DNA from: an uncultured Clostridia bacterium
GTDB lineage: Bacteria; Bacillota; Clostridia; Christensenellales; UBA1242
Direction of reading: 5' to 3'
Length of the DNA: 64,000 nt
NCBI GenBank assembly: GCA_944377165.1
Contig: CALWEJ010000005.1
Coordinates: 1-64,000 of the forward strand
Below, in pieces: positions 2,078 to 57,061 of the stretch (position 1 is its first letter; every line of letters starts with the position of its first letter). The notes under the pieces were generated by a model that ran no database searches, was not told the origin of the DNA, and worked only from the letters and a program-made list of their open reading frames with translations. Position numbers and translations under genes: made by a program.

Positions 2078-2106
2078 TTGACAAAAATATAAAGATTATT
2101 TAAAAT
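2078..2106 (+). promoter_or_regulatory. hflX leader promoter
   Basis: TTGACA (2078-2083), a 17-nt spacer and TAAAAT (2101-2106). It produces a roughly 285-nt leader before hflX. Confidence 0.75.
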
Positions 2107-2121
2107 AACAAGATTGGAGGT

Positions 2122-2340
2122 GTGAGATGGACAATTTACTTAATCTCACGAAATAATTAAAGATAAAAGTTGTTTAAAGATATAAATACAACAATAAATG
2201 AAGCGTGACCTTGTTTATTTTTTGATTTTTCTAATTGTGAATTAAATCGGCATTTTGAATTAGAAATGGGGTAATAGAAATAAAAGTTGCCTATGTAGAA
2301 TATGTATTTATATTCTTAAATTATCAACTTTCTTTTATCT
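2122..2340 (+). promoter_or_regulatory. Structured hflX leader, probable attenuator
   Basis: The leader holds a uORF (2127-2156) whose start lies in a hairpin, GTGAGAT (2122-2128) with ATCTCAC (2143-2149). A terminator-like hairpin follows: AATAAATGAAG (2193-2203) with CTTGTTTATT (2210-2219), then T-rich DNA. TTTCTAATT and AATTAGAAA form a further 9-bp stem. The 10-mer ATAAAAGTTG occurs twice (from 2163 and from 2280), and both copies can pair with the single downstream strand at 2325-2340, so alternative folds exist. Family knowledge: hflX-type genes in some Firmicutes are induced by ribosome-targeting antibiotics through leader attenuation. The mechanism here is inferred. Confidence 0.6.
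2127..2156 (+). CDS. Leader peptide MDNLLNLTK upstream of hflX
   Basis: A nine-codon ORF ending in TAA, preceded by a strong GGAGG site 6 nt upstream and starting about 15 nt into the predicted transcript. Its position in front of terminator-like structures fits a translated sensor rather than a functional protein. Confidence 0.55.
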   Translation: MDNLLNLTK

Positions 2341-2398
2341 ATTTTGTGAAATGTTTAGAAATGTTTTATTTTTAATTTTTATAAAGGGGAGTTGAATT

Positions 2399-3496
2399 AT
2401 GTTTGAAAACAATAAAGTTATTAAAGAAAAAGCATATTTGGTATGCCCATATGTAAATTTAAACGGTTCGGACTATAGGTCAAAAGAGTTGATACTTTTA
2501 AGCGAATCTGCTTTGTTAGACGTAGTAAAATGCAACGTGTTTTTATTAAAAGAAATTAATGCGCGAACTTATATGGGGATAGGAAAAGTTGAAGAAATTC
2601 GTGACGAGGTTGAAAGTTTAGGTGCTAATGTCGTTATTTTTGATTGTCCGCTAACTGGGTCGCAACTGAGGAATTTGGCGGAAATAATTGGAGTAAAGGT
2701 TATTGATAGGACTATGCTTATTCTAGATATTTTCGCAGGACGAGCAAAGTCGAGTGAGGGTAAACTAGAAGTAGAGTTGGCGCAATTAAAATATACTTTA
2801 CCGCGTCTTGCCCTACTTAATATGAATAACGCGCGCGCTAGTACTGGTGTAGGTATGCGCGGAACAGGTGAAACGAAGTTAGAGTTAGACAAAAGAAAAA
2901 TACAAGATTCAATAGTCCGACTCGAAAAGGAGATTAAAGAAGTTCAGAAACGCAGACAAACTACACGAAAACAACGTCTAAGTAATATGCGAAGTGTGGC
3001 GCTTGTCGGATATACAAATGCAGGGAAATCTACTCTTATGAATTCGATAGCAAAGGCTGGAACGTACGCGGACGATAGGCTATTTGCTACCCTTGACGTA
3101 TTATCAAAACGCGTCTGGGACGAAGGGGTAGAGTATGTTCTCATTGATACAGTAGGATTTGTATCTAACCTACCGCACGAATTAATGCACGCCTTTTCGG
3201 CTACACTTGAAGAAACTCTTGATGCTGATGTTTTACTTATGGTGGTGGATGCAAGTGATGAGCATAAATACGAGCAAATTGAAGTGGTAGAAAGAGAATT
3301 TGAACGTTTAAAAATAGACAAATCTAAGGTAATTTTAGTGTATAATAAAGTGGATAAAATCTCTAATGAAGAATTGCAGAATTTAAGGCAATATCCATAT
3401 GATACGTGTTATGTTGAGGCTAGAAGCGGAACAAATGTAGTACAGTTAAAACAAATGGTACGCGAGAAAATTCAATCAATACCAAAATACAGATGA
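2399..3496 (+). CDS. hflX: GTPase HflX
   Basis: A 365-residue ribosome-associated GTPase. HflX binds the 50S subunit and splits stalled or hibernating ribosomes after heat or antibiotic stress. The N-terminal HflX domain (about 1-190) contains the conserved GxGETKLELDKR block. The G domain shows GYTNAGKST (G1, near residue 205), DTVGF (G3) and NKVD (G4). It is shorter than the approximately 420-residue E. coli protein because the C-terminal extension is reduced. GGGGAG lies 8 nt before the ATG. The long leader upstream suggests regulated expression. It shares a bidirectional terminator with the convergent dehydrogenase. Confidence 0.95.
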   Translation: MFENNKVIKEKAYLVCPYVNLNGSDYRSKELILLSESALLDVVKCNVFLLKEINARTYMGIGKVEEIRDEVESLGANVVIFDCPLTGSQLRNLAEIIGVKVIDRTMLILDIFAGRAKSSEGKLEVELAQLKYTLPRLALLNMNNARASTGVGMRGTGETKLELDKRKIQDSIVRLEKEIKEVQKRRQTTRKQRLSNMRSVALVGYTNAGKSTLMNSIAKAGTYADDRLFATLDVLSKRVWDEGVEYVLIDTVGFVSNLPHELMHAFSATLEETLDADVLLMVVDASDEHKYEQIEVVEREFERLKIDKSKVILVYNKVDKISNEELQNLRQYPYDTCYVEARSGTNVVQLKQMVREKIQSIPKYR

Positions 3497-16874: not shown

Positions 16875-16903
16875 TTGACAAATTTTACAAGATTTATTAG
16901 AAT
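16875..16903 (+). promoter_or_regulatory. Promoter of the 1240-residue surface protein
   Basis: TTGACA (16875-16880), 17 nt, TAGAAT (16898-16903). The TTG is in frame with the gene, so an extended ORF starting at 16875 is artefactual. Confidence 0.75.
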
Positions 16904-16931
16904 TATCAAGACAATTAATAAGGAGACATCA

Positions 16932-19900
16932 ATGAAGACCAAAACTAATTTTTTTAAACTATTCTTCTGCTTTATAGCATTTGCAATTTTAAGTGTTATA
17001 TTTGCATTTGCGCCTACATTGACAACATTTGCAGCAGAAAGTGAACAACTTATAGAAAGTTATGTTTACACATTTAGTATGACTAAAATGCCTGATAGAA
17101 CTATCGATATTAGTACAGGCGCTGAATTTTTAATTCCGCTTGTTTCGGATAATGCTACTTGGACATCTTACAAAATTAAAGTGACTGACCCTGCTGGTCA
17201 AGTTCACGAGTATGACCCTAGCGCAGACAATAGCGAAAATGACTATTTCGTAGCACCTACAACTGCTAGTGCTAGCGAATATATAAAGGTTAATTCAACT
17301 GTGGCTGGCGATTATGATATTTATTATGTTCTAACAGGTGCTATCGGTACAGTGACATCTAATGCTTACACAGTGACTATTGAAAATACAACTTATGAAA
17401 TTGATTTTTCTATTTTCAATGAAGAAAATGTTGATACTGGCTTAGATGCGCTTATACCTTCACAAGTAAAAGTTGGACAATCTTATACCCTACCTGCTGG
17501 TTATATCAAAGAAACGGATAGCGAAGTAGTAGAAAATACTACAACAGCAACTTTAGTAGTCACAAATTCAAACGGTGATGAAGTTGTATTACAAGATAAC
17601 GTTCTACCTACTACAGAGGAAGAAACTTATACAGTAGAATATAGTTATGCTGGCGGAACAAATAAGCCTACAGTTTCATATACAATCAACGTTGTGAGTG
17701 AAGCAGACTACGAAGCTCCAGAAGAGACAATAGTTGTCACTCCAACATTCCCAAGCTTTGAATTAGGCGATAAAGAGATTAAATTACCAACTCTTACTGT
17801 AAATGAAAAATATTCTAATAGCACAACAAATAATGTTAAGTACAATATTAAGTCTATTACAATTAAGAAAGAGGGTAGCGATACTATTAAACAAGTATTG
17901 TCAAACAATGATTTAACTTTTGATATGACCACTTCTGCTTTCGGAGTTGAAAATTATGCTGATTTGGTAGGCAACTATACTGTCACATACGAGATTGAAA
18001 CAGCTTATACAACTGTCACTCGTAATTATCGTATAACAAATGTAAACTATGTTTCTAGTCCTGAAGTATATATGGCTTATAACTACACAGATGCAAATAA
18101 TGTAGATACAAATTATGCATATGACTTAAAGTCAACTTATGGATATAATGAAATCGTTTTACCTGCAATTTATGCTACAGACAAAGTATCTTCAAGCGAA
18201 GATTTGTTAGTAATAAGATATTTACAAAGGAATAGTGATAATCGCATTTTCTACGTAGATAATAAAGTTATTGACGGCGGTGAAATAGTTGACGTTGATG
18301 AAGCATACCTTGAGTCTCACCCTACAGTTTCTGCTAACAAAGCAGAAACTTTGACTGGTGCTAATAATGCGCAATTATTTAGATTCGCAGTTGAACCAAT
18401 AGCAAGCGATTATGAAGGCGGAGAAACGAGCGAAGAATATAAGCAAGCTATGGCTGAATATATTGAAACTTGTCAAGATTCAGCTGGCGAATATACTCTT
18501 TATTATCAAGTTTATTCAAAAGTTTCAAAGAAAACTAATTACGTTTATTCTTCTGGTACAACAAGATATACAATTACAATTGATGATGATGCAGTTTATC
18601 ACGTAGATGATGAAAGTACTCCAACAATCTCATTCAACAATTTCACAAATAGGTCAATTAAACCTAGTGAAGAGTTTACAATTAGTGTAAATGCTTCTGA
18701 CGAACAAGACACAAGATTAAAGACTGCAATGTTCTACTTCTACGGAACAGATGTTGCTGATATAACAACAAAAATTACAGGTGCTATCGCAGAAATTGAA
18801 GGTGACTCAGTTAATACAACTGGACGCACAAGCAATATCTTAGATAGTGCTGAATTCGCTACAAAATTAGGTTATACACGTTTAAAAGCAACTGAAGGAA
18901 AGACAAATACATTTGACTTCAGTTTAGAAGGCACAACTGATTATGAAGGACAATCTAATATTACAGTTGTTGCTATAGCTATTAACGATTTTGGTAATAT
19001 TGACGTAGTGACTAAGACATTAAGTTTACGTGATACTCAAGAAGATAATATTGCTCCAACAGCATCAATTATTGATGCAGGAAGCTTCACTGTAAGCGGA
19101 AGTTCATTAACTTTAAATAATATTAACCAATTTGATAGTATTAATCTTCCTACAATAACATTTGCGGACGATATCGACAATAGCCTTTCAGTTTCTGTTA
19201 TGTACTATGTACAGTCTAACGGAAAGGTAATAAATTATAAATATCCAAGCAATTATGTTTTGACAGGAAATAGTGCTAATGGCGGTACAATAACAGCTAC
19301 TGAAGCCGGCACATATTATGTAATTTATACTGCTACTGATGATGCTGGAAACACAACAACATTATTTATGAATTTTGTGGCAGAAGAAAATTCTGACCCT
19401 ATATTCGAAGTTGAAGCGGTAGGCGAAGATATTACTAATACAGGTAATACAGTATCAGCGGAGCAAGGTAGTGTAATCAACTTTTACCCAACAGTTTATT
19501 CTTCTGACCGCACTAGTGATATAACTGCGACTTATGAAAATGATATCACAGTTAGTGTTAATAATAACGGAAAGAGATATGAACCTACGGGTGATGATTT
19601 ATATTCATATAAATTCTATGAAGTAGGTAATTACGTCTTCACATTCACTCTCAATAGAGAGGGAAAAGATAGCTTAACACAAGTCGTTTACGTTAATGTG
19701 ACAGAAGCTGAATTAAAATGGGATAACGAATTTTCAATTAGTTCAACTGCAACTGCAGGTTCAACAATCGATTTAGGATATCCTACTGCATCACAAGGCG
19801 ACGAGAAAGCTGAAATTTCAGTCACTGTAAAAGCTCCAAGCAAAGACCCTGTTAATGCAACGTATGTAAACAATAACTGGACATACACAGTTCCATCTAC

Positions 19901-20654
19901 CGGCGACAATATTAACGGAACTTATACTGTCACTTATACTGCAAAGACTTCAAGTTCTACTATCAGTATGACTAAGACTTTCAGAGTAGGCGACTTACAA
20001 GCCCCTTCAATAGCACTTTTAGTTAGCGATGATAAATTAAAAGAAGATATTGTTTACAATGGTTCAAATATAAGCTATTCAATTAAGGTCGTTAAAACTC
20101 CTGCAAATGAAAGAAAAGTTGTTATTACTGTGACAAATGGAGATAAACAATTATATTCATATGAAATCTTAAATAGTTCTACAGGTTTAAGCGATAATAA
20201 TGCAACTCAATCAAGATTATGGAATAATCTATCAGTTGTATTATCAAGTGCAAATGGAACTGTCGCTAGCGAGAAAGATGGAGATATTACAACTTATACT
20301 ATCACAGGTACAGGCGAATATACTTTAACTATTTCAACATACGACGGTGAAACTGAGTCATCTAGCAACAAAGCAACTAAGACTTTAACATTTAATGTTA
20401 AATCAGAAAGCACAGTTGATGAAAAAGACGATACAGTCGTTGGAGTAGTATTAATTGTAATTTCATTACTTGTATTAGCTGGAGTTATCTTATTCTTCGC
20501 ATTCACTGGTAAAGGTGGAAAGAGCAAGAAATCGACTTCTAAACGCGAAAAATCTACAAAAGTGGAGTCTAAGAGTGAAGAAGTAGAGGAAGTTAGCGAA
20601 AATAAGGAAGATAAAACTCCTGATGAAGCTAAAACAGGCGAGATCGAAGAATAA
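16932..20654 (+). CDS. Membrane-anchored surface protein with Ig-like repeats
   Basis: A 1240-residue secreted protein. Residues 1-37 form a signal peptide (basic start, hydrophobic core, likely cleavage near TTFAA/ES). The long extracellular part is rich in Thr, Ser, Asn and Asp with beta-sandwich repeats; segments such as GTYYVIYTATDDAGNTTT resemble bacterial Ig-like or HYR-type domains. Residues about 1168-1193 form a membrane helix followed by a Lys-rich then acidic tail of about 45 residues in the cytoplasm. There is no LPXTG motif, so anchoring is by the helix. The start follows AAGGAG. Likely roles are adhesion or cell-envelope structure. It is a single gene with its own promoter and terminator. 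Confidence 0.85.
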   Translation: MKTKTNFFKLFFCFIAFAILSVIFAFAPTLTTFAAESEQLIESYVYTFSMTKMPDRTIDISTGAEFLIPLVSDNATWTSYKIKVTDPAGQVHEYDPSADNSENDYFVAPTTASASEYIKVNSTVAGDYDIYYVLTGAIGTVTSNAYTVTIENTTYEIDFSIFNEENVDTGLDALIPSQVKVGQSYTLPAGYIKETDSEVVENTTTATLVVTNSNGDEVVLQDNVLPTTEEETYTVEYSYAGGTNKPTVSYTINVVSEADYEAPEETIVVTPTFPSFELGDKEIKLPTLTVNEKYSNSTTNNVKYNIKSITIKKEGSDTIKQVLSNNDLTFDMTTSAFGVENYADLVGNYTVTYEIETAYTTVTRNYRITNVNYVSSPEVYMAYNYTDANNVDTNYAYDLKSTYGYNEIVLPAIYATDKVSSSEDLLVIRYLQRNSDNRIFYVDNKVIDGGEIVDVDEAYLESHPTVSANKAETLTGANNAQLFRFAVEPIASDYEGGETSEEYKQAMAEYIETCQDSAGEYTLYYQVYSKVSKKTNYVYSSGTTRYTITIDDDAVYHVDDESTPTISFNNFTNRSIKPSEEFTISVNASDEQDTRLKTAMFYFYGTDVADITTKITGAIAEIEGDSVNTTGRTSNILDSAEFATKLGYTRLKATEGKTNTFDFSLEGTTDYEGQSNITVVAIAINDFGNIDVVTKTLSLRDTQEDNIAPTASIIDAGSFTVSGSSLTLNNINQFDSINLPTITFADDIDNSLSVSVMYYVQSNGKVINYKYPSNYVLTGNSANGGTITATEAGTYYVIYTATDDAGNTTTLFMNFVAEENSDPIFEVEAVGEDITNTGNTVSAEQGSVINFYPTVYSSDRTSDITATYENDITVSVNNNGKRYEPTGDDLYSYKFYEVGNYVFTFTLNREGKDSLTQVVYVNVTEAELKWDNEFSISSTATAGSTIDLGYPTASQGDEKAEISVTVKAPSKDPVNATYVNNNWTYTVPSTGDNINGTYTVTYTAKTSSSTISMTKTFRVGDLQAPSIALLVSDDKLKEDIVYNGSNISYSIKVVKTPANERKVVITVTNGDKQLYSYEILNSSTGLSDNNATQSRLWNNLSVVLSSANGTVASEKDGDITTYTITGTGEYTLTISTYDGETESSSNKATKTLTFNVKSESTVDEKDDTVVGVVLIVISLLVLAGVILFFAFTGKGGKSKKSTSKREKSTKVESKSEEVEEVSENKEDKTPDEAKTGEIEE

Positions 20655-29378: not shown

Positions 29379-29411
29379 ATGAGGTATCATACTGTCATTA
29401 TGTACTGTTAA
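29379..29411 (+). CDS. Leaderless leader peptide MRYHTVIMYC upstream of ABC-F gene
   Basis: A ten-codon ORF (TAA stop) whose ATG lies 6 nt after the -10 box, so it would be read from a leaderless mRNA. Codons 3-5 overlap the strand 29386-29393 that can form the 5' arm of a terminator, which is how ribosome-sensing attenuators are built. Confidence 0.55.
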   Translation: MRYHTVIMYC

Positions 29412-29514
29412 TTACAACTAAATGTTGCACTTTTAGATGCAACATACTTTTTGCTGTAATTAATAAAAATGAATTGAGAGTATGATTTTTTTTGTTAAAA
29501 TTTTGTCATACTCT
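29386..29514 (+). promoter_or_regulatory. Probable transcription attenuator of the ABC-F gene
   Basis: ATCATACT (29386-29393, inside the uORF) pairs with AGTATGAT (29479-29486), which runs straight into T8: a terminator. Inside it nest TTAATTACA/TGTAATTAA (29408-29416 with 29455-29463) and ATGTTGCA/TGCAACAT (29422-29429 with 29438-29445, followed by T5). Alternatively AGAGTATGA (29477-29485) pairs with TCATACTCT (29506-29514), excluding the terminator and leaving the AAGGAG site free. A stalled ribosome on the uORF would favour this. Known for several antibiotic-resistance ABC-F genes; inferred here. Confidence 0.65.
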
Positions 29515-29527
29515 AAAAGGAGACAAA

Positions 29528-31174
29528 ATGATAATATTAGAGGTTAATAAAGTAAATAAAAATTTTGGGTATGGCACTCTTTTTGAAAATTTGAGTTTTT
29601 CACTTAATGAAGGAGAGTCAATTTCGATTGTAGGTCCTAACGGTTGTGGTAAATCCACTTTGCTTAAAATGATAATAGGACTAACTAAAATAGATGGTGC
29701 TTCAATAAATATAAAAAAAGGTGCAAAAGTTGCATATCTTGACCAAACAGGTTCAAGCATAGAAGATGAAAGGTCTGTTTATGAAATATTAAAAGATGCG
29801 TTTGTCGAGTTAAATACAATCCAAAATAAAATAAATAATTTACAAGAAAAATTAAATTCGCAATTGGAAGAAAAAGAATATAATAATACATTAATAAAAT
29901 ATTGTGATTTACTAGATAAATTTTCAAACTTAGGTGGGTATGATATTTCTAAAAATATCAATACAGTTGTTGACGGATTAAACATTAACAGAAAATTACT
30001 TGAACAATGTTATAATAATTTAAGCGGAGGAGAAAAGACAATTGTCCAACTTGCAAAAGCACTATTATCTAAACCAGATTTATTTTTGTTAGATGAGCCA
30101 ACAAATCATTTAGATATTCAAAGAATAGAATGGTTAGAAGCATATATAAAATCATTTAAAGGAGCAACAGTTATTGTTTCACATGACAGATATTTTCTAG
30201 ATAAAATGTCTAATAAAATTTTAGCAATAGATAATGGAAAAGCAAAAGTTTATAATACGAATTATTCAGGGTATTTGATTGAAAGAGAAAAAGAATTTGA
30301 AAAACAATTATCAGAGTATAAAACACAACAAATAAAAATAAAAAGACTAGAAACTCAAATAAAGTATTTTGCTGAAATGGGAATTGCAAAGAATAGTTCG
30401 ACACTTTGTGATAGAGCGCGCGCACTACAATCTCAACTTGATAGATTAAAGAAAAGTGCAGTGCCTAGACCAAAGGAACAGAAAAAATTGAATATGAAAT
30501 TCGACAGTTTAAGAAAGACAAGCAAAGAAATTATTAGTTGTAAAAAACTATCAGTAATTCTTCCGAATGGTAAGGCTATTCTCAATGAAATAAACTTAAA
30601 TATATGCGCAGGTGAAAGAATTGCTTTAATAGGTGCTAATGGGAGTGGTAAATCAACATTTATAAAAACTATTATGAATAGACAAAATTTGCAAGTAATA
30701 GGAGAGATAAAGGTTGGTCCAAATGTTAAAATTGGATATATACCGCAAATAATCAACTTTTCGAATGAAAACTTATCATTGTTAGAATATTTTAAAAGTC
30801 AAATAAGTATAAACGAGCAAATTGCACGGCAAATTCTAGCAGAATTTCAATTCTATAGTGATGATGTAAATAAATCAGTAAAAAATCTTTCTGGTGGAGA
30901 AAAGATAAGGATTAAACTCGCAGAACTATTACAACGACCGATTAATACACTAATTTTTGACGAACCTACCAACCATATAGATATTAATACAAAGGAAGTT
31001 TTAGAAGAAGCATTAATTAACTTTAAAGGTACATTGATATTTGTAAGTCACGATAGATATTTTATAAATAAATTGGCAGACAAGGTTATAGAATTTAAAG
31101 ATGCTACTATTAATACTTATCTTGGCGGATACGATGATTACAAACGACAGAAAAAGAGTGAAAACATCATTTAA
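29528..31174 (+). CDS. ABC-F ribosomal protection-type ATPase
   Basis: A 548-residue soluble twin-ABC protein without membrane domains. ABC-F proteins bind the ribosomal E site and free the peptidyl-transferase centre. Module 1 has GPNGCGKST (near 35), LSGGEK and LLDEPTNHLD. Module 2 has GANGSGKST (near 370), LSGGEK and IFDEPTNHID. The linker (about 250-320) is charged and helical, as in proteins that reach toward the P-site tRNA. The start follows AAGGAG at 29528; a 12-residue upstream extension is rejected because it lies within the attenuator. The regulated leader favours an antibiotic-resistance type over housekeeping EttA. Drug specificity cannot be read from sequence. Confidence 0.85.
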   Translation: MIILEVNKVNKNFGYGTLFENLSFSLNEGESISIVGPNGCGKSTLLKMIIGLTKIDGASINIKKGAKVAYLDQTGSSIEDERSVYEILKDAFVELNTIQNKINNLQEKLNSQLEEKEYNNTLIKYCDLLDKFSNLGGYDISKNINTVVDGLNINRKLLEQCYNNLSGGEKTIVQLAKALLSKPDLFLLDEPTNHLDIQRIEWLEAYIKSFKGATVIVSHDRYFLDKMSNKILAIDNGKAKVYNTNYSGYLIEREKEFEKQLSEYKTQQIKIKRLETQIKYFAEMGIAKNSSTLCDRARALQSQLDRLKKSAVPRPKEQKKLNMKFDSLRKTSKEIISCKKLSVILPNGKAILNEINLNICAGERIALIGANGSGKSTFIKTIMNRQNLQVIGEIKVGPNVKIGYIPQIINFSNENLSLLEYFKSQISINEQIARQILAEFQFYSDDVNKSVKNLSGGEKIRIKLAELLQRPINTLIFDEPTNHIDINTKEVLEEALINFKGTLIFVSHDRYFINKLADKVIEFKDATINTYLGGYDDYKRQKKSENII

Positions 31175-46957: not shown

Positions 46958-49900
46958 ATGACAAAAAGAATTTTTAAAGTTTTAGCGATTGTGTTAGCAA
47001 TAGTCACTGGTGTGACAGGAATAGTCTTAGGAGTGCTAGCATTACAAGGAAAATTTAAGACGCCGGAAGTATATCCAGCGAGTCTTTCTTTTGATATGGA
47101 AAGTAATTTATTAATTGATAATTACGCGGACGAAGAATTTTCTTTTATCCTGTCTGCGCAGTCAAATAGTGAACACGAAGTTAATCATACAACTTGTTAT
47201 ATTCAATTTGTTCGCGGAGAAAATTTAATTACGCTATTAAATAACGATGGAGAAATTAATCAACCTAATTCAAGTGGTTGGTATCAAGTTGAGTGTAATA
47301 ATGAAATAAAATTCAAGTTAAAAGATGTGACCGAATCCAACTTCGAAGGCGATGAATATGGTATAGTGACAATTGTCGCTAGAGATGAGAGAAACATTGT
47401 TCAATCGCAACAATTTAGTTTTACGATAGACAGGAAAATAGATAGTATTTATTTAGATTCAGAATCTACTACTATTGATAATGATTTAGCAGTCCCTGAG
47501 CAAGTTCTATCTTTAGGACTCGACACTCGCCAAGATTTAACTTATGTTAGTTCACCTTCATATGCATTAAGGCCTATTAGTAGTGAAAGCGCTAAAACAG
47601 TTGAACTTTATTATAATGACCCAAATAATAAAAATGACCTTGTAGCGATTACTAGCGAGAATGCAAGTCAATACGAATTCTTACATATAGATGATGAAAC
47701 TAATCAAATGTATTTTTCGTCAAATGAAGCAGGTATATACGAATTCAGAATTGCGGTTTTCGACACATTTGCTTCACGCAATGAATATTTGTCAGACCCA
47801 ACTAATGAAGGTAAATTAAATTCAGAAAGATTAAATAGTATGGTATCAACAAAACTTACTATTAATGTAGTTAATTCTGAAGTGACTGACGTTAATGTGA
47901 CTGATTCAGGAGTTTTGTTCAACTTATATGCTGGAAATAATTATTTAACATTGAATGGAAATGGAACTGATTCTAGTGTAAATAATATCAATTTAGGTTT
48001 AGTCTTTTCTCCAAGTAATTCAGAAACAGATGTGCGATACAATGAAGTGGATTTCAGTCTGAATGAAAATACTTCGTGGCGCGATAACAATATTATATTT
48101 GAGTCGAACAATGGCGCAAGTATAACGTTCTCAACTACAACTTCTTCAATAAAAGGACTATTTGGCGAAGAAAAATTCTTTGATAGCTACACGATTAACG
48201 ACACTGCTGATACTATTACGTTGACGAACAATACAACAAGTGAACGATATAATTTAAAGATAAATTATGGTGAAATAGAAATTAGAAATAGAAAACTTAT
48301 AAACAGCTTAGAGTTAACAATAAATAATGGTGAGGCAGAAGAAACCTACACATTTACAGCATCAAACGGCTTAACATTCATTAGGTCGGACGCAACCACT
48401 AAGAGCGTGACTATGCTAATCACAGGCTCATACTTAGATTTCTATATTTATGACGCGAATGAACACACCTATACACTTGCAACTGATTTTGACTACGAAA
48501 TTGCGGGAGTTAATGGAACGGGTAAAGATAAGAACTTTAATATAATAGTCAAAAATCAATTAGAGTTAAATAGCGGTACATCTTTATTGCTAGGTGCGCT
48601 TGTAGTAAATAGTACAGGCGGAGAGTTAATGTTTGATACAACTTTCGTCACTATTCAAACGGTCGATTTGTCATATGAATTTGTTGATGGTAGCAGAAAT
48701 TACAGTTTAGATGTTTCTTATCGTCCGGTTGGAGATAGCTTTGAAGCAGTTTATGGAGAAATTGAGTTCGGCGATTTAGTGACTGTTAATGCGGGCAGTT
48801 ATAATGCAATGATATTAGTGACAACTCATGAATATTTAACTGAAATTGATACGCTTGAAAATCTAACAATTACTGACGGAATAAATACTTATTACATTGT
48901 TGGTTATATCGATGATAATGATGTATTTATAAATAATGTACGCGCACGCGAAGGTGCTACGAATATCGGCGCTAAAATCTATATGGTGCAATTAAAGAAT
49001 GCATATGACGAGACTGCTAGCGAAATTATATCTGATATTTATAACACTAATGTCAAAAATGAAATTGACGGAACAGTCACTTATAATCCTTATGCTATTA
49101 ATGTGAATGATGATATAATCGTTAATACGTTTATTACAGACAATAATGCTATAACAATCAATATAAATTATGAATTATTAGAAGATGAAATTAATTTTGA
49201 TTATGATTTAACTTACGAATATGTAATCGAAAATCCAGATGATTCAATAAGTTTAGTTGAAGGTATGGACGGATATACATTAGTAATATCTTCTAATGTG
49301 CCTAATATGCTTACAAATGCTTATGGAGTGATAGGAGCGGACAATATATTAAATCATTTATCATTCTATCTATTTACAGGTAATGACTCGTATAGCATTG
49401 ATAATTCAGTTTTAAGCATCGTTAGTGCAACTTTAGAAAATGACCAAATTATTGTAAACTTTAGCACACTAGAAAGCAGTTTAAACGATAATGCTTATTT
49501 AAAATTTGTATTCAGTTATAAAAATAAAACTATAATCTCAAATCAAATAGTAAAGATTCTAGATACTGAAGCTACAGATATTGTTTTAAATTACGAAACA
49601 ATGGTAGAGGACACTCCTACTACTAATACAATAAATTTAGCGCAAAGTGAAAATAGCGCATTAAATGATAATATGCCTTACCTAAACATTGTAATTGCAT
49701 ATGATAATATGGCTGAGGCATATAATTACAATGCATTCTTGTATGATACTAAAGGGAATGTTATATATAATAACTTAGATGTATTTGCCCCTCAAGTTGT
49801 TGGTATTAATAATCAAGGATTTAATGTAATACCAGCTATAAATGGTGTTAGTCATACATTACAATATGCAAGTACAGATACATCAATATTCGATTATGAT

Positions 49901-52900
49901 TTTAACACTAAGGAATTCAAAACTTGCAAGGTCGGTGAACTCGCTCTTCAAATTTCTTCTGACAGCAATGTGACTAGATACTTAAAGGTTGTAATTACGG
50001 CTGAACAAGGTGAAAATGGATTTGAATTTAATGTACCTAGCAGTCAATCATCATCAAAAAATCCATTAAAATTAAATGAGTTTGTTAACTATTCTTTCAA
50101 TAGAACAAATATTCCTACTAATTCAAAATTCATTAATATTTCAAATATAAATATAGAATCGTTCGGCATAACAAATGTGACATTATCAGTAGAAAATGAC
50201 CCCGATAATTCAAATATCTATTACATTAAGGCTGACAATGGTGATACAATTTTAACTATCGCAGACGATCCAGAGTCGTGGACATTCACACGTAATAACA
50301 GTTATTTATATTCTTCTTTAGAGATTAGTTTTGATTTAAGTGTAGATACATTATCGACTAGTAGAAGGGTTAATTTAAGCTTTACTTCAAGTATTACAAT
50401 TAATATGAATGATAGTTGGTCGAATATATATGCTAACACTAACATTTTATTAATAGAAAGTAGAGAAAGTACAACTACTAATTTTAACGAAAACGCATTA
50501 TTTAACGTCACTAATTTAACAGGCGAAGGCAGTGTGACGGTAGATATAAATGGCACAGTCCTTGAATCTAATACGTATAAATTTAATACTCCGGGCGACT
50601 ATACTATCAATTTCTCATATGGGCAAGGCGAAACCACAGGAATAATATCTTCAATTAATATCTCAGTTTTACCAAACGTTATAATTAATGTTATAGAAAC
50701 GAATGTGGAAAGTGACACTACATATAAATTAAGTGATATAATTTCAGTAAGTAGTTATGACGAATTACAAACTTATGGTCAAAGCGGAGTAATGTACAGT
50801 AATGAATACCTTAGCGAATTAGAAACTATTCCTACCAACTTAATTGTTAGCGCTAATGACGGAAATTCATTAATTACACAAACAGCGGACGGCTTTAAAA
50901 CAGGTTGGATAACTAGTCTAAATTCTACAGGAGTTAATCAAACAATAGATTTATTATACACATACGGTAGTGGTAGTGTTGTATTATCTGATATTGAATT
51001 AACTATAAGCAACAAATACTCGATTAGTGGTGGACTTGTTGGACCATTAAAGACATTAACAAGTTATAATGTTGGCTTATCAGTTGACGGATTTGCATTA
51101 AAATCTATCGAGAACAATAAGGGCTTAAATATTGAATTAAACGCAGATAAAAACCAATTTACTATTAATTCATATCTTGTTAGTGAGCAAAAGGCGGTAT
51201 TTACATATACATTCTATAATTCAAGTGATGCAAGCAAAGAATTAACATATTATACTGAAGAAATAACGATTTCGCCTTACATACCTAATGAAATAGACAG
51301 CAGTAGTATTTTAAAGGCTTATACTAATTCTAGTTATGATTTAATTAACAACATTTATAGCGATATTGTAAAGGATGATATTTTCATAAATAATGTACGT
51401 AGTTTTGTTGTCCTTTCGGTTGACAATAGTGAATTAATAACGAATTTCGAAGATATTATCGGCGCAGGTTATCACGAAGGTACAACCTTAGTTTCGGCAG
51501 TCGCTAATTTTGGTGCAATTAGCGAAGATAGTGCGACTATAGAAATTACATATAGAATTACATATAAAGACGGAAATTATTATGACTATACACGCGAGTT
51601 AGTTGTTTATAACAACACAGATATGGTTATAAATTATCCTTTTATAGATTCTTCACTGGTTGTAAATGGAGTTAACTTCAAGTTTATTAATGAAGAAGAC
51701 GCTAAGAATTTAGGTACAACTAATGGAACAATTTATAGTTCAAGTAATTTGTCTTTCGAACCAGTAAGTGTAGGTCAGACTATTAACTTTACTAATGACG
51801 AAGATTTAAATATAGTAAGAGGAACAGTATTAAATAGAGAAGATGGCTCTATCTTAAGCGCAGACTATACGATTTCACTTGTCGCATATCAGAGCAACCC
51901 AACCGGCTATAATTATTATACTAATATCGTAATAGACGGCAAGAATGTGACATTTAGAAGTAGTACAGCAATCGCTAGCACTGCTTCAGCATACTTTATC
52001 TTTAAACTAACGACTGAAACAGGCGCATATGAATATTATTTTGTATATTTGTACAATCAAAACAATACTTCACTTAGTGGTATAACTAAAAATACTATTA
52101 TGGAGCAAATTAATTTGACTTCAGGTGAAAAGATACTTAATGCGACGAATAATACATTATTTGGTGTTGGTATCACTAATTTAGTTGCAAGCTTAGGAGT
52201 ATCATCTAGTATAAGCACACAAAATCTTGATTTCTATATCTTAGACGCATATGATTTAGCAGGAAATGAGAAATATTCTTCATTAACTATTGACGGTCAA
52301 GCAGTTGAAACGTATGTTAAAATAGATGATGCAGTATTTACTGACCCTATCAATTATTCTGTATTCAAAGTGGCAGTAGTATATGCTAATAGTACGGCAG
52401 TAGTTCATATTGGAAATATCGATTTTGTTTATGCAAATAATACAATAAGTATTGGTACTTTGACCGCAACGTTAAAAAACAATTCGACTCTAAGCATAGG
52501 GTTGACTAACAAAAATGGAGAGATAAATTCAGGCGAATACAAGGCCGATATCTCGTATGAAGTAGAAAGTTTATCGGCTCCATCACTAACAGACATAGTA
52601 CTTGATTCAGTCAATATAACTTCAATTAATAATGACACTAGATTTGAAATAACAAACGACGGACAATCAGTCGTTGTAAGAGATAATACTGATGTAATTG
52701 TTTCGCTAGATGCAATAATTAAAGGTCAAATTAACTTTAAGGAACAAGTATTAGACGATGATTTAATTTTCACTGTTAAATATACATATGTTAAAGACAC
52801 AAACACTATTGTAATTTTCGTCACATATACATATGAAGCAATTAAACTTGATTTCACTGACAGCACGATTTCATTAGGAGATTTCAGTACAGTAGATGGG

Positions 52901-55900
52901 TTTAACGATACTTATAAATTAACTACAATATTCGGAAACTATCTTGGCAATATAACGTTTGCTATTGACGGTCAAGAAACTGAAATTACATATGCTGGAG
53001 TTATTAAAGAAGGAACTGAAGGGTACAATACTGACCCTGTAGCAATAACAGATAATGTAAGTTATGTTGTTATAGACGGCGAACCTTACTTTAAGTTTAA
53101 TTTAATCAATAAAACTTATCAGACTGAAATTACAATCAAATTCACAGATGTGGCAGAAGTAAAAGGTGTAAATTCAAAGAAAATAATTGCTAACGTTGCT
53201 ATGGGATTAAGCATATCTTCAAACCCTTATGAAAGTAACCCTTATGCAATAGATGTAGAGAAGGGAAGTGTTAATTACACTTCGAATGTCGGCTCTAGTT
53301 TAACATTTAGCTACTCTGAAACTGAATCAAATTATATAACCTACAATCTAGGGAATACTAATGGTTTAACTATTTATATTTATATAAATACAATGACTAA
53401 AGGCCTTGACTTTACATATAGTGATAATAGTTATGTTGTAGATAGTATTATTTCCGAATCTGGAAGTGGCACAGAAACAACACTAAGCAACGAAAATGAT
53501 AAAACTATCAATTTTGTTCATTCAGCTAGTGAAATATCTGACTTTAGAATTAATGTTAAAGTTAAATATGGTTCTGAATATTATATAACCGATAGCTTAG
53601 ATAATACTGAGGTTAGCATTCCTGTATTAGTAAAAATTCCGCAAACATATTTAGGGGTAAAACCTATTTATTTAGTCAAGAATTCGGAATATGAAATTGT
53701 TGACCCTACAACAAATGATAGTTGGGGATTAAGTTCATTATTTGATGAAAATAATAGTAATAACATTTTCAACAAATATAAGTTAGCAATTATAGACTTA
53801 AATAATGCACCAACTACTGATTATAATTCACAAAATATAGGCTTTACTAATAGCAATAATCCAAATTATGTCACAATATCTTCGGGTAGCGGTGATTTAA
53901 CTATTAATAATGGCAATGTGACTTTCGGTAGTGTGACGACTAATACAAATGCTTCAATTTATATTATTAATGATACAATGGGAAGCTTAGGTGCGGTTGA
54001 ATATAAATTCTTAATATTGCCTGATAGCACACGTTTGAATTTCACTGATAATGTGAGAAGCGGAACAGTCACTGAGAGTGAAAAGAGATATACTTATGCG
54101 GTAGCATTGATTAACGATAATGTTATAGGGGAGAATTTCAGTACTGATATTGAATTTGCTAGTTTAATAGATGTCGATAATAAGTTATTGTATGCTAGCA
54201 ATTTAGCTTATAGTATGGATTATTATGACAGTGGCAGAGGAACAACTCAATCTTCTAATGGAACATATTCAAATGAAGATGCTAATGGTCAAGAAATTGT
54301 ATTAAATATAAATATTAATTTATCAGTAATTATTAAGATTAACGAAAATGGCAATTTAGTATTTACGATAAATAGAGCGAACGGTACAAATCAATTTAAG
54401 AGTTTAATATTAGAAGCAACATTGTACGGTAATGGCTTGATTTGCGAGAACTATAGATTCATATTCTTTAACTATTCGATTAATTCAGCTATTGATAATG
54501 AGATTTATGCTTCTACGCAAGTAAATTTATCTAACGCAGTAGAGATTAAATCTAATTCGGACAACTCTGATTTAACAATGAATAATGCAACACTTGATAC
54601 TTCTAAATCATACTACAATGTCCCAGGTGGCGGAACATTAAATATCACTAGTGACATTAACGAATTATTCACATATTCAACTGAAACTAAAGTTATTGAA
54701 TTTAGTCCGGTGGCGGTAGATGTGACTGCGCATATTGAATTTATGATAACATCTAGCATTGGAAGCTCATCATATCACGTAGGTTCAGTAATATTTGATT
54801 GGACAATAAAACAAAATCACGAATTTGCTATTAACAATGCTACAGTAGCAAATCAAAATGATATCTTTACTACAAATTATATGCTTTCGGATACAAATTT
54901 AAAATCAGGTAAAGAATTCCCATATGAAACTAACTTAAATAATAGTAATTTAGGTGATACGATTTCATATGATGGAAAATCATATTATACTGCTATTAAT
55001 TTCGTTGTACGTGATATTTTAACAAAAACACAGTTAACGAACTTAACGGACGCATACTTAGATTTCGTTATAACTAATCAAGATGATTTCGGATTCGTTG
55101 GTGACGAGCCAGTAGTATCAATAGTACAAGACGGAAATACATATAAACTTGTTTTACTAAAGGATATTACAGGCGATATTGAAATAACAGTCACGGCAGG
55201 ATTTATTCATATTGGCGAATATACGAGAAGATGGACTATTTCTGTTCAAGGATTTGCTAATTTCGATTATAAGTACAATGAAGACGCGATATTAACTACG
55301 TCCAGTGCTCAAGCATTTGTTAGTGGAGCTCAAGTAAAACCTTTCAATACTGTTTCGAGCGATAGCTCAGTATATTCAAATGACGGAACGGGTGTTATTG
55401 TGTCAGATATAAAATCTATTAGAAAATACACATATACGTACACAGTAAATAGTATTCAATATGTAGATTTACCGAACTCTCAAACTATTAACAGTGCCGC
55501 GCAATTATTCAATGACAATAGCCCTAAGCATAATATAGAATACACTCTTGACAATTCTAATGGTATCATAACGTTGACATTGCCTTTTGTTGAACAGTCA
55601 TTAAGTACAAATATTATTAATCATATAATTATTATGAAAATCGAAATGACCTATCTAAATAATACTATTACTAGATATGTCACTTATCGGGTTTATAATA
55701 ATACACGTGTAGAAGTTGCAGATGCAATAAATGGCGCTAACATAAATGTAGATTCTGACAATCGTCTAAGAATAGAAGGCGGAGAGGCTAATCTAGCATT
55801 ATTCGATTATTCTGATGTTTATACTGATGAATCTAACAATAAGTACATTGTTAAATATGTATATAATAATGCTAATAAATATGCTTTAACTATTATTAAT

Positions 55901-57061
55901 GCTGGTGAAGATTCTGGTACTACGATTTATTCATATAATGCTGAAGAATTTACATACGGCAACACTACTTATACTATAAGTGAAGATAGTATTGTCGTAA
56001 AAGGCGATAGTTCACAAAATATTAATGTGACTAAAACAAATACTATCGGTGAAAATACACTATTTACAAGTACATTCAATAATGTGACAGAGTTTGCTAA
56101 CTTCATTAATGATATAAGATACATTCAGTTATCTAATATGTCAGGATTTACTGCCCAAAACGATACGATTTACTACAAGTTAACATATATCTCAAGTGGA
56201 AACAATAAAGACAAATGGGGTATTGATATACTTGAACCATATTCTGATACTGAGTTAAAGGCAAGAATTGATATAGACGGAAAATTGTTTAATGGCACAT
56301 TATTAGCAGATTTCAGTGTTGTTCAGACAAATAGTTCAATTGATATAGAACAATATTCGTCTTCTAACAATATAGGATTTAGGCTATATGGTAATACTGA
56401 AATTATACCTGTAGGTACAGACGAATATAGACTTTCAGATTTGTTTAATCTAAATGATATTAATCCTAACTATGCTAATTATCGCATTATAGGAATATTT
56501 AGTGGAGATAGTTATACTAATGTAGGTAATGCTTGGGTTAAATTAAATAAAGGTACGGCTTATATAAGCTCTAGCGGTAGTGCAATAAGTGAGCAAGTAA
56601 TTTATAATAAAAACTATAAATTATATGCTATAACATTCACAGATAACAGTACTACTACAAGCATATATAACGCACAAGCAACTTATTACGCAATAGGTGT
56701 TTCAAGCGGAAATGCTGAGATAATGAAAGTTAATTATAATATCATTTCTGCAAGTTATTTCAATGTAGAGTATAAGGCTAACACTGATTCAACATTTGAT
56801 TTAACTAATAAATTCTTGAAATTTGATATGCAGAACAATGCTCTAACAAGGACAGAAATGTCGCCTAGTAAAGTAGAATATAAGTCAACTTCAATAAATA
56901 TAACAATTACTGTACCTAATATAAGCATTAGCAATCAGGAGTTAATCGATTATAAAGCAAATAATCTAACAGCAACATTCGTAGATTTAACATTTACAGC
57001 AACACTTTCTAGTGGAACGAAAGACTTCGTAGTTAGATTCTGGCTGCCAAATGAATTGTAA
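46958..57061 (+). CDS. Giant (3367-residue) N-terminally anchored surface protein
   Basis: A 10.1-kb gene. Residues about 5-29 are a hydrophobic segment after a short basic start, with no clear cleavage site, so it is a signal anchor. The remaining 3300 residues are extracytoplasmic, rich in Asn, Thr, Ser, Ile and Asp, with strand-turn patterns suggesting dozens of beta-sandwich (Ig/cadherin-like) domains. Cysteine and tryptophan are rare. No C-terminal membrane helix, LPXTG or S-layer motif is present. AGGTAGGGG lies before the ATG. It resembles giant adhesins or fibres in general design; no exact family is recognised. A frameshifted domain remnant follows the stop, so the protein may once have been longer. 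Confidence 0.85.
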   Translation: MTKRIFKVLAIVLAIVTGVTGIVLGVLALQGKFKTPEVYPASLSFDMESNLLIDNYADEEFSFILSAQSNSEHEVNHTTCYIQFVRGENLITLLNNDGEINQPNSSGWYQVECNNEIKFKLKDVTESNFEGDEYGIVTIVARDERNIVQSQQFSFTIDRKIDSIYLDSESTTIDNDLAVPEQVLSLGLDTRQDLTYVSSPSYALRPISSESAKTVELYYNDPNNKNDLVAITSENASQYEFLHIDDETNQMYFSSNEAGIYEFRIAVFDTFASRNEYLSDPTNEGKLNSERLNSMVSTKLTINVVNSEVTDVNVTDSGVLFNLYAGNNYLTLNGNGTDSSVNNINLGLVFSPSNSETDVRYNEVDFSLNENTSWRDNNIIFESNNGASITFSTTTSSIKGLFGEEKFFDSYTINDTADTITLTNNTTSERYNLKINYGEIEIRNRKLINSLELTINNGEAEETYTFTASNGLTFIRSDATTKSVTMLITGSYLDFYIYDANEHTYTLATDFDYEIAGVNGTGKDKNFNIIVKNQLELNSGTSLLLGALVVNSTGGELMFDTTFVTIQTVDLSYEFVDGSRNYSLDVSYRPVGDSFEAVYGEIEFGDLVTVNAGSYNAMILVTTHEYLTEIDTLENLTITDGINTYYIVGYIDDNDVFINNVRAREGATNIGAKIYMVQLKNAYDETASEIISDIYNTNVKNEIDGTVTYNPYAINVNDDIIVNTFITDNNAITININYELLEDEINFDYDLTYEYVIENPDDSISLVEGMDGYTLVISSNVPNMLTNAYGVIGADNILNHLSFYLFTGNDSYSIDNSVLSIVSATLENDQIIVNFSTLESSLNDNAYLKFVFSYKNKTIISNQIVKILDTEATDIVLNYETMVEDTPTTNTINLAQSENSALNDNMPYLNIVIAYDNMAEAYNYNAFLYDTKGNVIYNNLDVFAPQVVGINNQGFNVIPAINGVSHTLQYASTDTSIFDYDFNTKEFKTCKVGELALQISSDSNVTRYLKVVITAEQGENGFEFNVPSSQSSSKNPLKLNEFVNYSFNRTNIPTNSKFINISNINIESFGITNVTLSVENDPDNSNIYYIKADNGDTILTIADDPESWTFTRNNSYLYSSLEISFDLSVDTLSTSRRVNLSFTSSITINMNDSWSNIYANTNILLIESRESTTTNFNENALFNVTNLTGEGSVTVDINGTVLESNTYKFNTPGDYTINFSYGQGETTGIISSINISVLPNVIINVIETNVESDTTYKLSDIISVSSYDELQTYGQSGVMYSNEYLSELETIPTNLIVSANDGNSLITQTADGFKTGWITSLNSTGVNQTIDLLYTYGSGSVVLSDIELTISNKYSISGGLVGPLKTLTSYNVGLSVDGFALKSIENNKGLNIELNADKNQFTINSYLVSEQKAVFTYTFYNSSDASKELTYYTEEITISPYIPNEIDSSSILKAYTNSSYDLINNIYSDIVKDDIFINNVRSFVVLSVDNSELITNFEDIIGAGYHEGTTLVSAVANFGAISEDSATIEITYRITYKDGNYYDYTRELVVYNNTDMVINYPFIDSSLVVNGVNFKFINEEDAKNLGTTNGTIYSSSNLSFEPVSVGQTINFTNDEDLNIVRGTVLNREDGSILSADYTISLVAYQSNPTGYNYYTNIVIDGKNVTFRSSTAIASTASAYFIFKLTTETGAYEYYFVYLYNQNNTSLSGITKNTIMEQINLTSGEKILNATNNTLFGVGITNLVASLGVSSSISTQNLDFYILDAYDLAGNEKYSSLTIDGQAVETYVKIDDAVFTDPINYSVFKVAVVYANSTAVVHIGNIDFVYANNTISIGTLTATLKNNSTLSIGLTNKNGEINSGEYKADISYEVESLSAPSLTDIVLDSVNITSINNDTRFEITNDGQSVVVRDNTDVIVSLDAIIKGQINFKEQVLDDDLIFTVKYTYVKDTNTIVIFVTYTYEAIKLDFTDSTISLGDFSTVDGFNDTYKLTTIFGNYLGNITFAIDGQETEITYAGVIKEGTEGYNTDPVAITDNVSYVVIDGEPYFKFNLINKTYQTEITIKFTDVAEVKGVNSKKIIANVAMGLSISSNPYESNPYAIDVEKGSVNYTSNVGSSLTFSYSETESNYITYNLGNTNGLTIYIYINTMTKGLDFTYSDNSYVVDSIISESGSGTETTLSNENDKTINFVHSASEISDFRINVKVKYGSEYYITDSLDNTEVSIPVLVKIPQTYLGVKPIYLVKNSEYEIVDPTTNDSWGLSSLFDENNSNNIFNKYKLAIIDLNNAPTTDYNSQNIGFTNSNNPNYVTISSGSGDLTINNGNVTFGSVTTNTNASIYIINDTMGSLGAVEYKFLILPDSTRLNFTDNVRSGTVTESEKRYTYAVALINDNVIGENFSTDIEFASLIDVDNKLLYASNLAYSMDYYDSGRGTTQSSNGTYSNEDANGQEIVLNININLSVIIKINENGNLVFTINRANGTNQFKSLILEATLYGNGLICENYRFIFFNYSINSAIDNEIYASTQVNLSNAVEIKSNSDNSDLTMNNATLDTSKSYYNVPGGGTLNITSDINELFTYSTETKVIEFSPVAVDVTAHIEFMITSSIGSSSYHVGSVIFDWTIKQNHEFAINNATVANQNDIFTTNYMLSDTNLKSGKEFPYETNLNNSNLGDTISYDGKSYYTAINFVVRDILTKTQLTNLTDAYLDFVITNQDDFGFVGDEPVVSIVQDGNTYKLVLLKDITGDIEITVTAGFIHIGEYTRRWTISVQGFANFDYKYNEDAILTTSSAQAFVSGAQVKPFNTVSSDSSVYSNDGTGVIVSDIKSIRKYTYTYTVNSIQYVDLPNSQTINSAAQLFNDNSPKHNIEYTLDNSNGIITLTLPFVEQSLSTNIINHIIIMKIEMTYLNNTITRYVTYRVYNNTRVEVADAINGANINVDSDNRLRIEGGEANLALFDYSDVYTDESNNKYIVKYVYNNANKYALTIINAGEDSGTTIYSYNAEEFTYGNTTYTISEDSIVVKGDSSQNINVTKTNTIGENTLFTSTFNNVTEFANFINDIRYIQLSNMSGFTAQNDTIYYKLTYISSGNNKDKWGIDILEPYSDTELKARIDIDGKLFNGTLLADFSVVQTNSSIDIEQYSSSNNIGFRLYGNTEIIPVGTDEYRLSDLFNLNDINPNYANYRIIGIFSGDSYTNVGNAWVKLNKGTAYISSSGSAISEQVIYNKNYKLYAITFTDNSTTTSIYNAQATYYAIGVSSGNAEIMKVNYNIISASYFNVEYKANTDSTFDLTNKFLKFDMQNNALTRTEMSPSKVEYKSTSINITITVPNISISNQELIDYKANNLTATFVDLTFTATLSSGTKDFVVRFWLPNEL

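Follow-up and report, generated by a model that had tools for sequence, protein, structure and literature searches.

A uORF leader that probably attenuates translation of the only hflX gene of a 1-Mb clostridial genome

The hflX gene of a 1.02-Mb genome (assembly G000), from a gut genus in the Clostridia (Christensenellaceae), is preceded by a structured leader with a short upstream open reading frame (uORF). We consider this leader likely to be a translation attenuator resembling those of erm and cplR genes. It was analysed in the window, that is, the whole 64,000-nt stretch of DNA, and in relatives. Its elements (Table 1) and their conservation are evident from the sequences. The genome yielded a single strong hflX match, the next-best ones reaching ~31 bits or less; in the genus survey, hflX was present across 34 genomes, with a weak match only in G022.

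In the proposed off state, the uORF start would be folded into hairpin P1, and an anti-Shine-Dalgarno (anti-SD) strand would pair with the hflX SD (helix P3), leaving hflX untranslated. A ribosome completing the uORF would end on the switch strand and block helix P2, thereby maintaining the off state. If instead a drug acting early, or some other block immediately after initiation, were to hold the ribosome at uORF codons 1-2 (sometimes 3), P1 would melt and the switch strand would be left free from 2146 onward. The freed strand would then form P2 with 2339-2349, the adjoining 2158-2172 would capture the anti-SD, and the hflX SD would open. HflX would then be produced, able to split stuck ribosomes. 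The stalling, its cause and the response of HflX levels are steps that we infer.

Table 1. Features of the hflX leader in the window
Feature	Position	Strand	Remark
Sigma-70-type promoter, TTGACA-17-TAAAAT	2078-2106	+	Consensus score 11/12; transcript start expected at ~2113
uORF Shine-Dalgarno, GGAGG	2116-2120	+	
Hairpin P1	2121-2150	+	2121-2128 (spacer and start codon) pairs with 2143-2150 (distal uORF)
uORF, ATG..TAA, MDNLLNLTK	2127-2156	+	Nine codons; start position and stop kept among relatives, peptide varies
Switch strand	2146-2156	+	Distal uORF including stop codon; partner is P1 or 2339-2349 (P2)
On-state partner of anti-SD	2158-2172	+	Contains repeat copy 2163-2172; fold prediction
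Terminator-like hairpin of the first-pass annotation	2193-2223	+	Judged not a terminator
Anti-Shine-Dalgarno strand TCAACTTTCTTTTAT	2324-2338	+	Shuffle p 0.006
P2 3' strand CTATTTTGTGA	2339-2349	+	
hflX ribosome-binding site ATAAAGGGGAGTTGA	2381-2395	+	Off-state partner (P3) of 2324-2338
hflX	2399-3496	+	Ribosome-splitting GTPase, 365 aa; TIGR03156 (HflX equivalog model), E 9e-116

Results

Promoter, uORF and hairpin P1

A first-pass annotation of this DNA had described a promoter at 2078, an SD-preceded uORF encoding MDNLLNLTK and a hairpin holding the uORF start, and all three withstood comparison, the uORF with identical coordinates. Comparison of hflX leaders revealed the same kind of leader in 13 genomes of the genus (L001, L002, L003, L014-L020, L023, L025 and L027), always before hflX. 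The promoter, scoring 11/12 with a 17-nt spacer, is common to all 13, and the end of its -10 box lies 9-14 nt from the uORF SD in each. The presence of one conserved promoter suggests that uORF and hflX are co-transcribed. Some 230 nt of A/T-rich sequence separate the uORF from the hflX SD.

The strands of P1 (TGTGAGAT at 2121-2128 and ATCTCACG at 2143-2150; -8.6 kcal/mol when folded alone) are also kept in relatives. Covariation in P1 is slight, amounting to a single compensatory pair (G-C to A-U in L018). The uORF starts with ATG in 11 leaders, GTG in L002 and ATT in L020, and its stop lies at the equivalent place in 11 of 13. L002 and L014 are one base shorter in the P1 loop; the frame is shifted and the pairing of P1 and P2 is preserved, and therefore it is the RNA that is conserved, not the peptide. 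Judging from these sequences, what counts is the RNA and that it is translated. Peptides of the relatives include MSNVHYLAM, MSKACFLTM and the frame-shifted VVSFVISQNN. We rejected peptide-specific arrest: beyond a frequent MS(N/K) start there is no conserved peptide, and the window does not have that start. The uORF might also be read as an amino-acid or tRNA-charging attenuator, given the three Leu and two Asn codons of MDNLLNLTK; these codons are not kept in the relatives named above, and we give this reading almost no credence.

No terminator-like site between uORF and hflX

The annotation of 2193-2223 as a terminator-like hairpin is probably wrong. The hairpin has only -2.1 kcal/mol (-4.1 with flanks), it is omitted by a terminator scan, and the segment around it is not more stable than its shuffles (z +0.97). 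Across the whole set, 0/13 leaders have a terminator-like site between uORF and hflX. Weak, shuffle-like, unlisted by the scan and missing in relatives, the candidate was rejected. The same evidence bears on transcription attenuation as in Listeria rli80/hflXr, whereby a terminator at ~2193-2223 would cut short most transcripts except when a ribosome is stalled on the uORF. The nearest known control of hflX does work in this way (PMC6310831), and the leader does contain a weak A/T hairpin with T6 after it, but the -2 to -4 kcal/mol of this hairpin does not rise above shuffles, none of the 13 leaders has a terminator-like site, and the RLR motif is missing from the uORF, which together make this explanation quite improbable. 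As to the earlier proposal of leader attenuation of hflX, the comparison supports the structured uORF leader well and speaks against the terminator level.

A helix over the hflX ribosome-binding site

The earlier description of a direct repeat, ATAAAAGTTG, offering two partners for 2325-2340 was accurate in part: the repeat is present at 2163 and 2280 and is complementary to 2325-2340, and its 2163 copy is the predicted partner in the on fold, but the strongest partner, which had been overlooked, is the hflX ribosome-binding site (2381-2395). Indeed, segment 2260-2398 folds far better than its shuffles (z -3.4; 0/200 equally stable) because 2324-2338 pairs with the SD-holding 2381-2395 to form the 15-bp helix P3. 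An anti-SD helix closing the SD of the main gene, as in the erm and cplR attenuators, thus occurs in eight leaders, namely the window and seven relatives (p 0.002-0.008 in seven; weaker in L023).

A search for P3 in all 13 leaders found it missing from five (L014, L015, L018-L020). These apparently use a helix with hflX codons in its place, and their modelled SD accessibility changes little. The off-state helix of L014, L015, L018 and L020 joins AUGCACGUU to hflX codons AACGUGCAU (GCGCGU/ACGCGC in L018). A second ORF (MHVKFF...), present in three of the five leaders without P3, was considered for coupling and dropped because its end varies. The helix of these four leaders, in which ATGCACGTT pairs with hflX coding sequence AACGTGCAT at about codons 10-16 (GCGCGT/ACGCGC in L018), would be a regulatory one extending into the coding region.

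A/U-rich helices over the hflX SD could also melt on heating, with the uORF incidental. Such an RNA thermometer would suit the U-rich anti-SD, which pairs with AAAGGGGAG, and the heat-stress role of HflX in the literature (rescue of heat-damaged ribosomes). We regard it as very unlikely, since it leaves the conserved uORF SD, start, stop, P1 and P2, and the mutual exclusion of these helices, unexplained.

Helix P2 and its relation to P1 and P3

The pairing of the uORF 3' end with 2340-2349 (P2) had also escaped the first-pass annotation. P2 joins the distal uORF strand (TCACAATGTA-type) to a strand starting ~45-65 nt upstream of hflX, and it is found in 13/13 leaders (per-leader shuffle p 0.002-0.066). 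In an alignment of 11 distinct rows, 87.6% of cells are paired and in nine of them both sides have changed, as with TCGCAA/TTGCGA in L003 and TCACGAAATA/TATTTTGTGA in the window. Neither the pairing nor the covariation was reached by any of 500 shuffles, counts that are not probabilities since the rows are related, and slid controls attained at most 43%. Many weak structures arise in A/T-rich linkers, and one might attribute the leader to chance folding with no regulation; compensatory changes, conservation at a single gene in 13 genomes and the shuffle controls make that hardly believable.

P1 and P2 share bases and are therefore mutually exclusive. With P2 formed, the anti-SD mostly pairs elsewhere in the linker, its alternative partners being 2158-2172 in the window, AAAGAAAGU in L016 and AAAGAAAAGAU in L023. 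From these folds, P2 would mark the on state and P3 the off state. P2 and P3 could also form together as a pseudoknot, P2 then stabilising the off state and induction following from a ribosome at any point of the switch strand. The order of uORF strand, anti-SD, P2 strand and SD permits an H-type pseudoknot, the gap between anti-SD and P2 strand being ~1-10 nt in most leaders, and nested folding cannot judge the combination of P2 and P3. We nevertheless find it unlikely: in the window, L016, L023, L025 and L027, P2 is accompanied by another anti-SD partner, and in L014, L015, L018 and L020, some bases belong to both the P2 strand and the off-state helix, which makes P2 and that helix mutually exclusive.

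Ribosome position and opening of the hflX SD

We folded each leader at 37 C with a 30-nt ribosome footprint placed at each uORF codon. In silico, P1/P2 and P2/P3 behaved as alternatives, and the response was specific to codons 1 and 2: a footprint there exposed the hflX SD in every one of the eight P3 leaders, whereas at codons 4-9 the SD mostly stayed closed. When the footprint was scanned along the whole leader, comparable opening elsewhere was seen only with the ribosome covering or adjoining the anti-SD. The predicted effect is what a stalled ribosome does in erm and cplR systems, namely inducing an alternative fold that frees the SD. A drug that acts at the first codons would fit this prediction, as would any post-initiation block.

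Shuffling the linker abolished the opening: over 11 leaders, the gain averaged 0.36 for the real sequences and -0.03 for the shuffled ones, and the best of 40 shuffle replicate means was 0.04. The observed gain was matched by 0 or 1/40 shuffles in each of the eight P3 leaders and in L013; in L026, it was matched by 5/40, and in L028, the gain was negative. The window's own predicted opening is modest (0.01 to 0.20). With the coding sequence included, the window figure (L001) is 0.29 to 0.41, and the effect persists in all eight P3 leaders, smaller in several; L003 then opens clearly at codon 2 only.

Distribution and leaders of unrelated sequence

Run against 297 genomes of the family and 396 of the order, an element model of the uORF (R1) found the leader in the 13 genus genomes and one near-identical contig, always before hflX and on no other gene in this sample. 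Three weak R1 matches in or next to unrelated genes were judged chance, and the looser matches to GGAGGTGTGAGATG that were inspected were mostly ordinary gene starts. A contig of 8.7 kb in a genome of another genus (L097, G260:C46) is nearly identical to the hflX leader region of G017 and is probably misplaced.

Three further hflX genes of the genus have leaders of unrelated sequence, with uORFs MSNYRFAYSIC (L013), MDRLIVG (L026) and MDKCKMRLN (L028), in which the elements stand in the same order of uORF strand, anti-SD, P2 strand and SD. In L013, the SD opens at codons 1-2 only (0.00 to 0.74-0.76) and is closed again from codon 3; its hflX reading frame is apparently interrupted early, and this copy may therefore be broken or misassembled. 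In L026 and L028, P2 is already present in the resting-state fold, and a ribosome at the uORF end closes the SD. The shared layout is a good sign, at the level of sequence and modelled folds, that the arrangement itself is under selection. Footprint folding gave no clear switch for L007 (MSIECDFLF) or L031 (MIVAR). The latter (in G006) has a different design, a five-codon uORF with SD and a GGACGA/TCGTCC hairpin before hflX.

For 40 hflX genes from other genera of the family, no SD-led uORF was found in their vicinity. Many of the family's hflX genes, as well as L004-L006, L008 and L010-L012, have a -10 box directly before the ATG and no SD, and apparently give leaderless mRNA. On a tree of HflX, the leaders fall in several groups among leaderless ones, with three label changes for the P3 type. 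Given this scatter, the order of gain and loss is not confident, several inner branches being unsupported.

Discussion

Control of hflX by a uORF is already known, at the transcriptional level and with an Arg-Leu-Arg peptide, from Listeria rli80 and Bacillales uORFC-6-1. In Listeria monocytogenes, hflXr is controlled through a terminator by rli80, a uORF of 14 aa containing RLR (Arg-Leu-Arg) (PMC6310831). Both leaders set an HflX under a uORF with alternative RNA folds, the ribosome stalling being demonstrated there and proposed here. The Listeria target is a second, dedicated paralog, hflXr, whereas ours is the genome's only hflX, predicted to be governed by SD sequestration with no conserved peptide; neither a terminator between uORF and hflX nor RLR was found in the window or its relatives. 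The uORFC-6-1 motif of Bacillales likewise combines a uORF with covarying structure upstream of hflX, and its conserved RLR peptide accompanies a suggested transcription control (PMC8632094). In that motif the whole structure follows the uORF start; here the start codon is within a hairpin and the structures differ, and neither that placement nor the RLR peptide occurs in the window or relatives.

The closer parallels are in mechanism. In erm (ermB) attenuators, a stalled ribosome frees one strand and the downstream SD and start open (PMC11264731), as proposed here. Those systems need drug-dependent arrest peptides and control an rRNA methylating enzyme, whereas stalling in the hflX leader is predicted at codons 1-2 with no conserved peptide, and the target splits ribosomes. 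The C. difficile cplR leader combines translational and transcriptional attenuation, with a uORF, MRI, on which stalling by post-initiation drugs is thought likely (PMC10201436). It shares with the hflX leader an anti-SD element and, on the reading proposed here, very early uORF stalling and translational attenuation, but transcriptional attenuation also acts there and the target is an ABC-F gene. As in both systems, a short SD-led uORF lies upstream, by inference on the same transcript. In its predicted mode of action the leader thus resembles an erm/cplR attenuator, its target is that of rli80, and it belongs to neither the rli80 nor the uORFC-6-1 type. A translation-level uORF switch of hflX did not appear in the mostly open-access literature searched; the leader would be a translational, apparently peptide-independent variant, acting on the single hflX of a 1-Mb genome.

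More tentatively, and with the balance of our judgement still against it, the pairing of uORF start and end may provide a sensor, independent of the peptide, for ribosomes that are stuck at initiation or immediately after it. The sensor would directly control the ribosome-splitting factor able to clear them, closing a homeostatic loop around the single hflX of a minimal genome, and one genus would contain it in versions of unrelated sequence. If the attenuator reading is true, translation-level uORF control of hflX would exist separately from the transcriptional hflXr attenuators known in Bacillales, and where the ribosome sits could serve as the signal in place of an arrest peptide. An early-stall sensor feeding a ribosome-splitting factor would make the cellular substrate of HflX directly testable. 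Finding such leaders needs comparison of element order, not of letters.

Other observations in the window

In an Rfam scan of the whole window, the leader had no match above the gathering score, and the sole match was a tRNA. Two very long ORFs (46958-57061 and 16875-20654; 3367 and 1259 aa) gave zero matches in an NCBIfam search at the cut-offs used.

The window had also been credited with leader attenuation of a second ribosome-stress gene, an ABC-F gene (ribo_prot_ABC_F) ending at 31174. This gene does have a uORF leader of its own (29379-29530), of a design different from that of hflX. Its uORF, ATGAGGTATCATACTGTCATTATGTACTGTTAA (MRYHTVIMYC), has its ATG seemingly at the transcript 5' end and no SD. 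Relatives of ~50% identity (L116, L117, L118 and L120) carry MRYHTILAYVED, MRYHTILAYELD, MRYHTILAYV or MKYHTILAYV, followed by a conserved TTAATGTTGCAC..ATGCAA hairpin. The uORF peptide is conserved in the ABC-F leader, in contrast to that of hflX, and by its sequence the ABC-F leader looks like a separate arrest-peptide attenuator.
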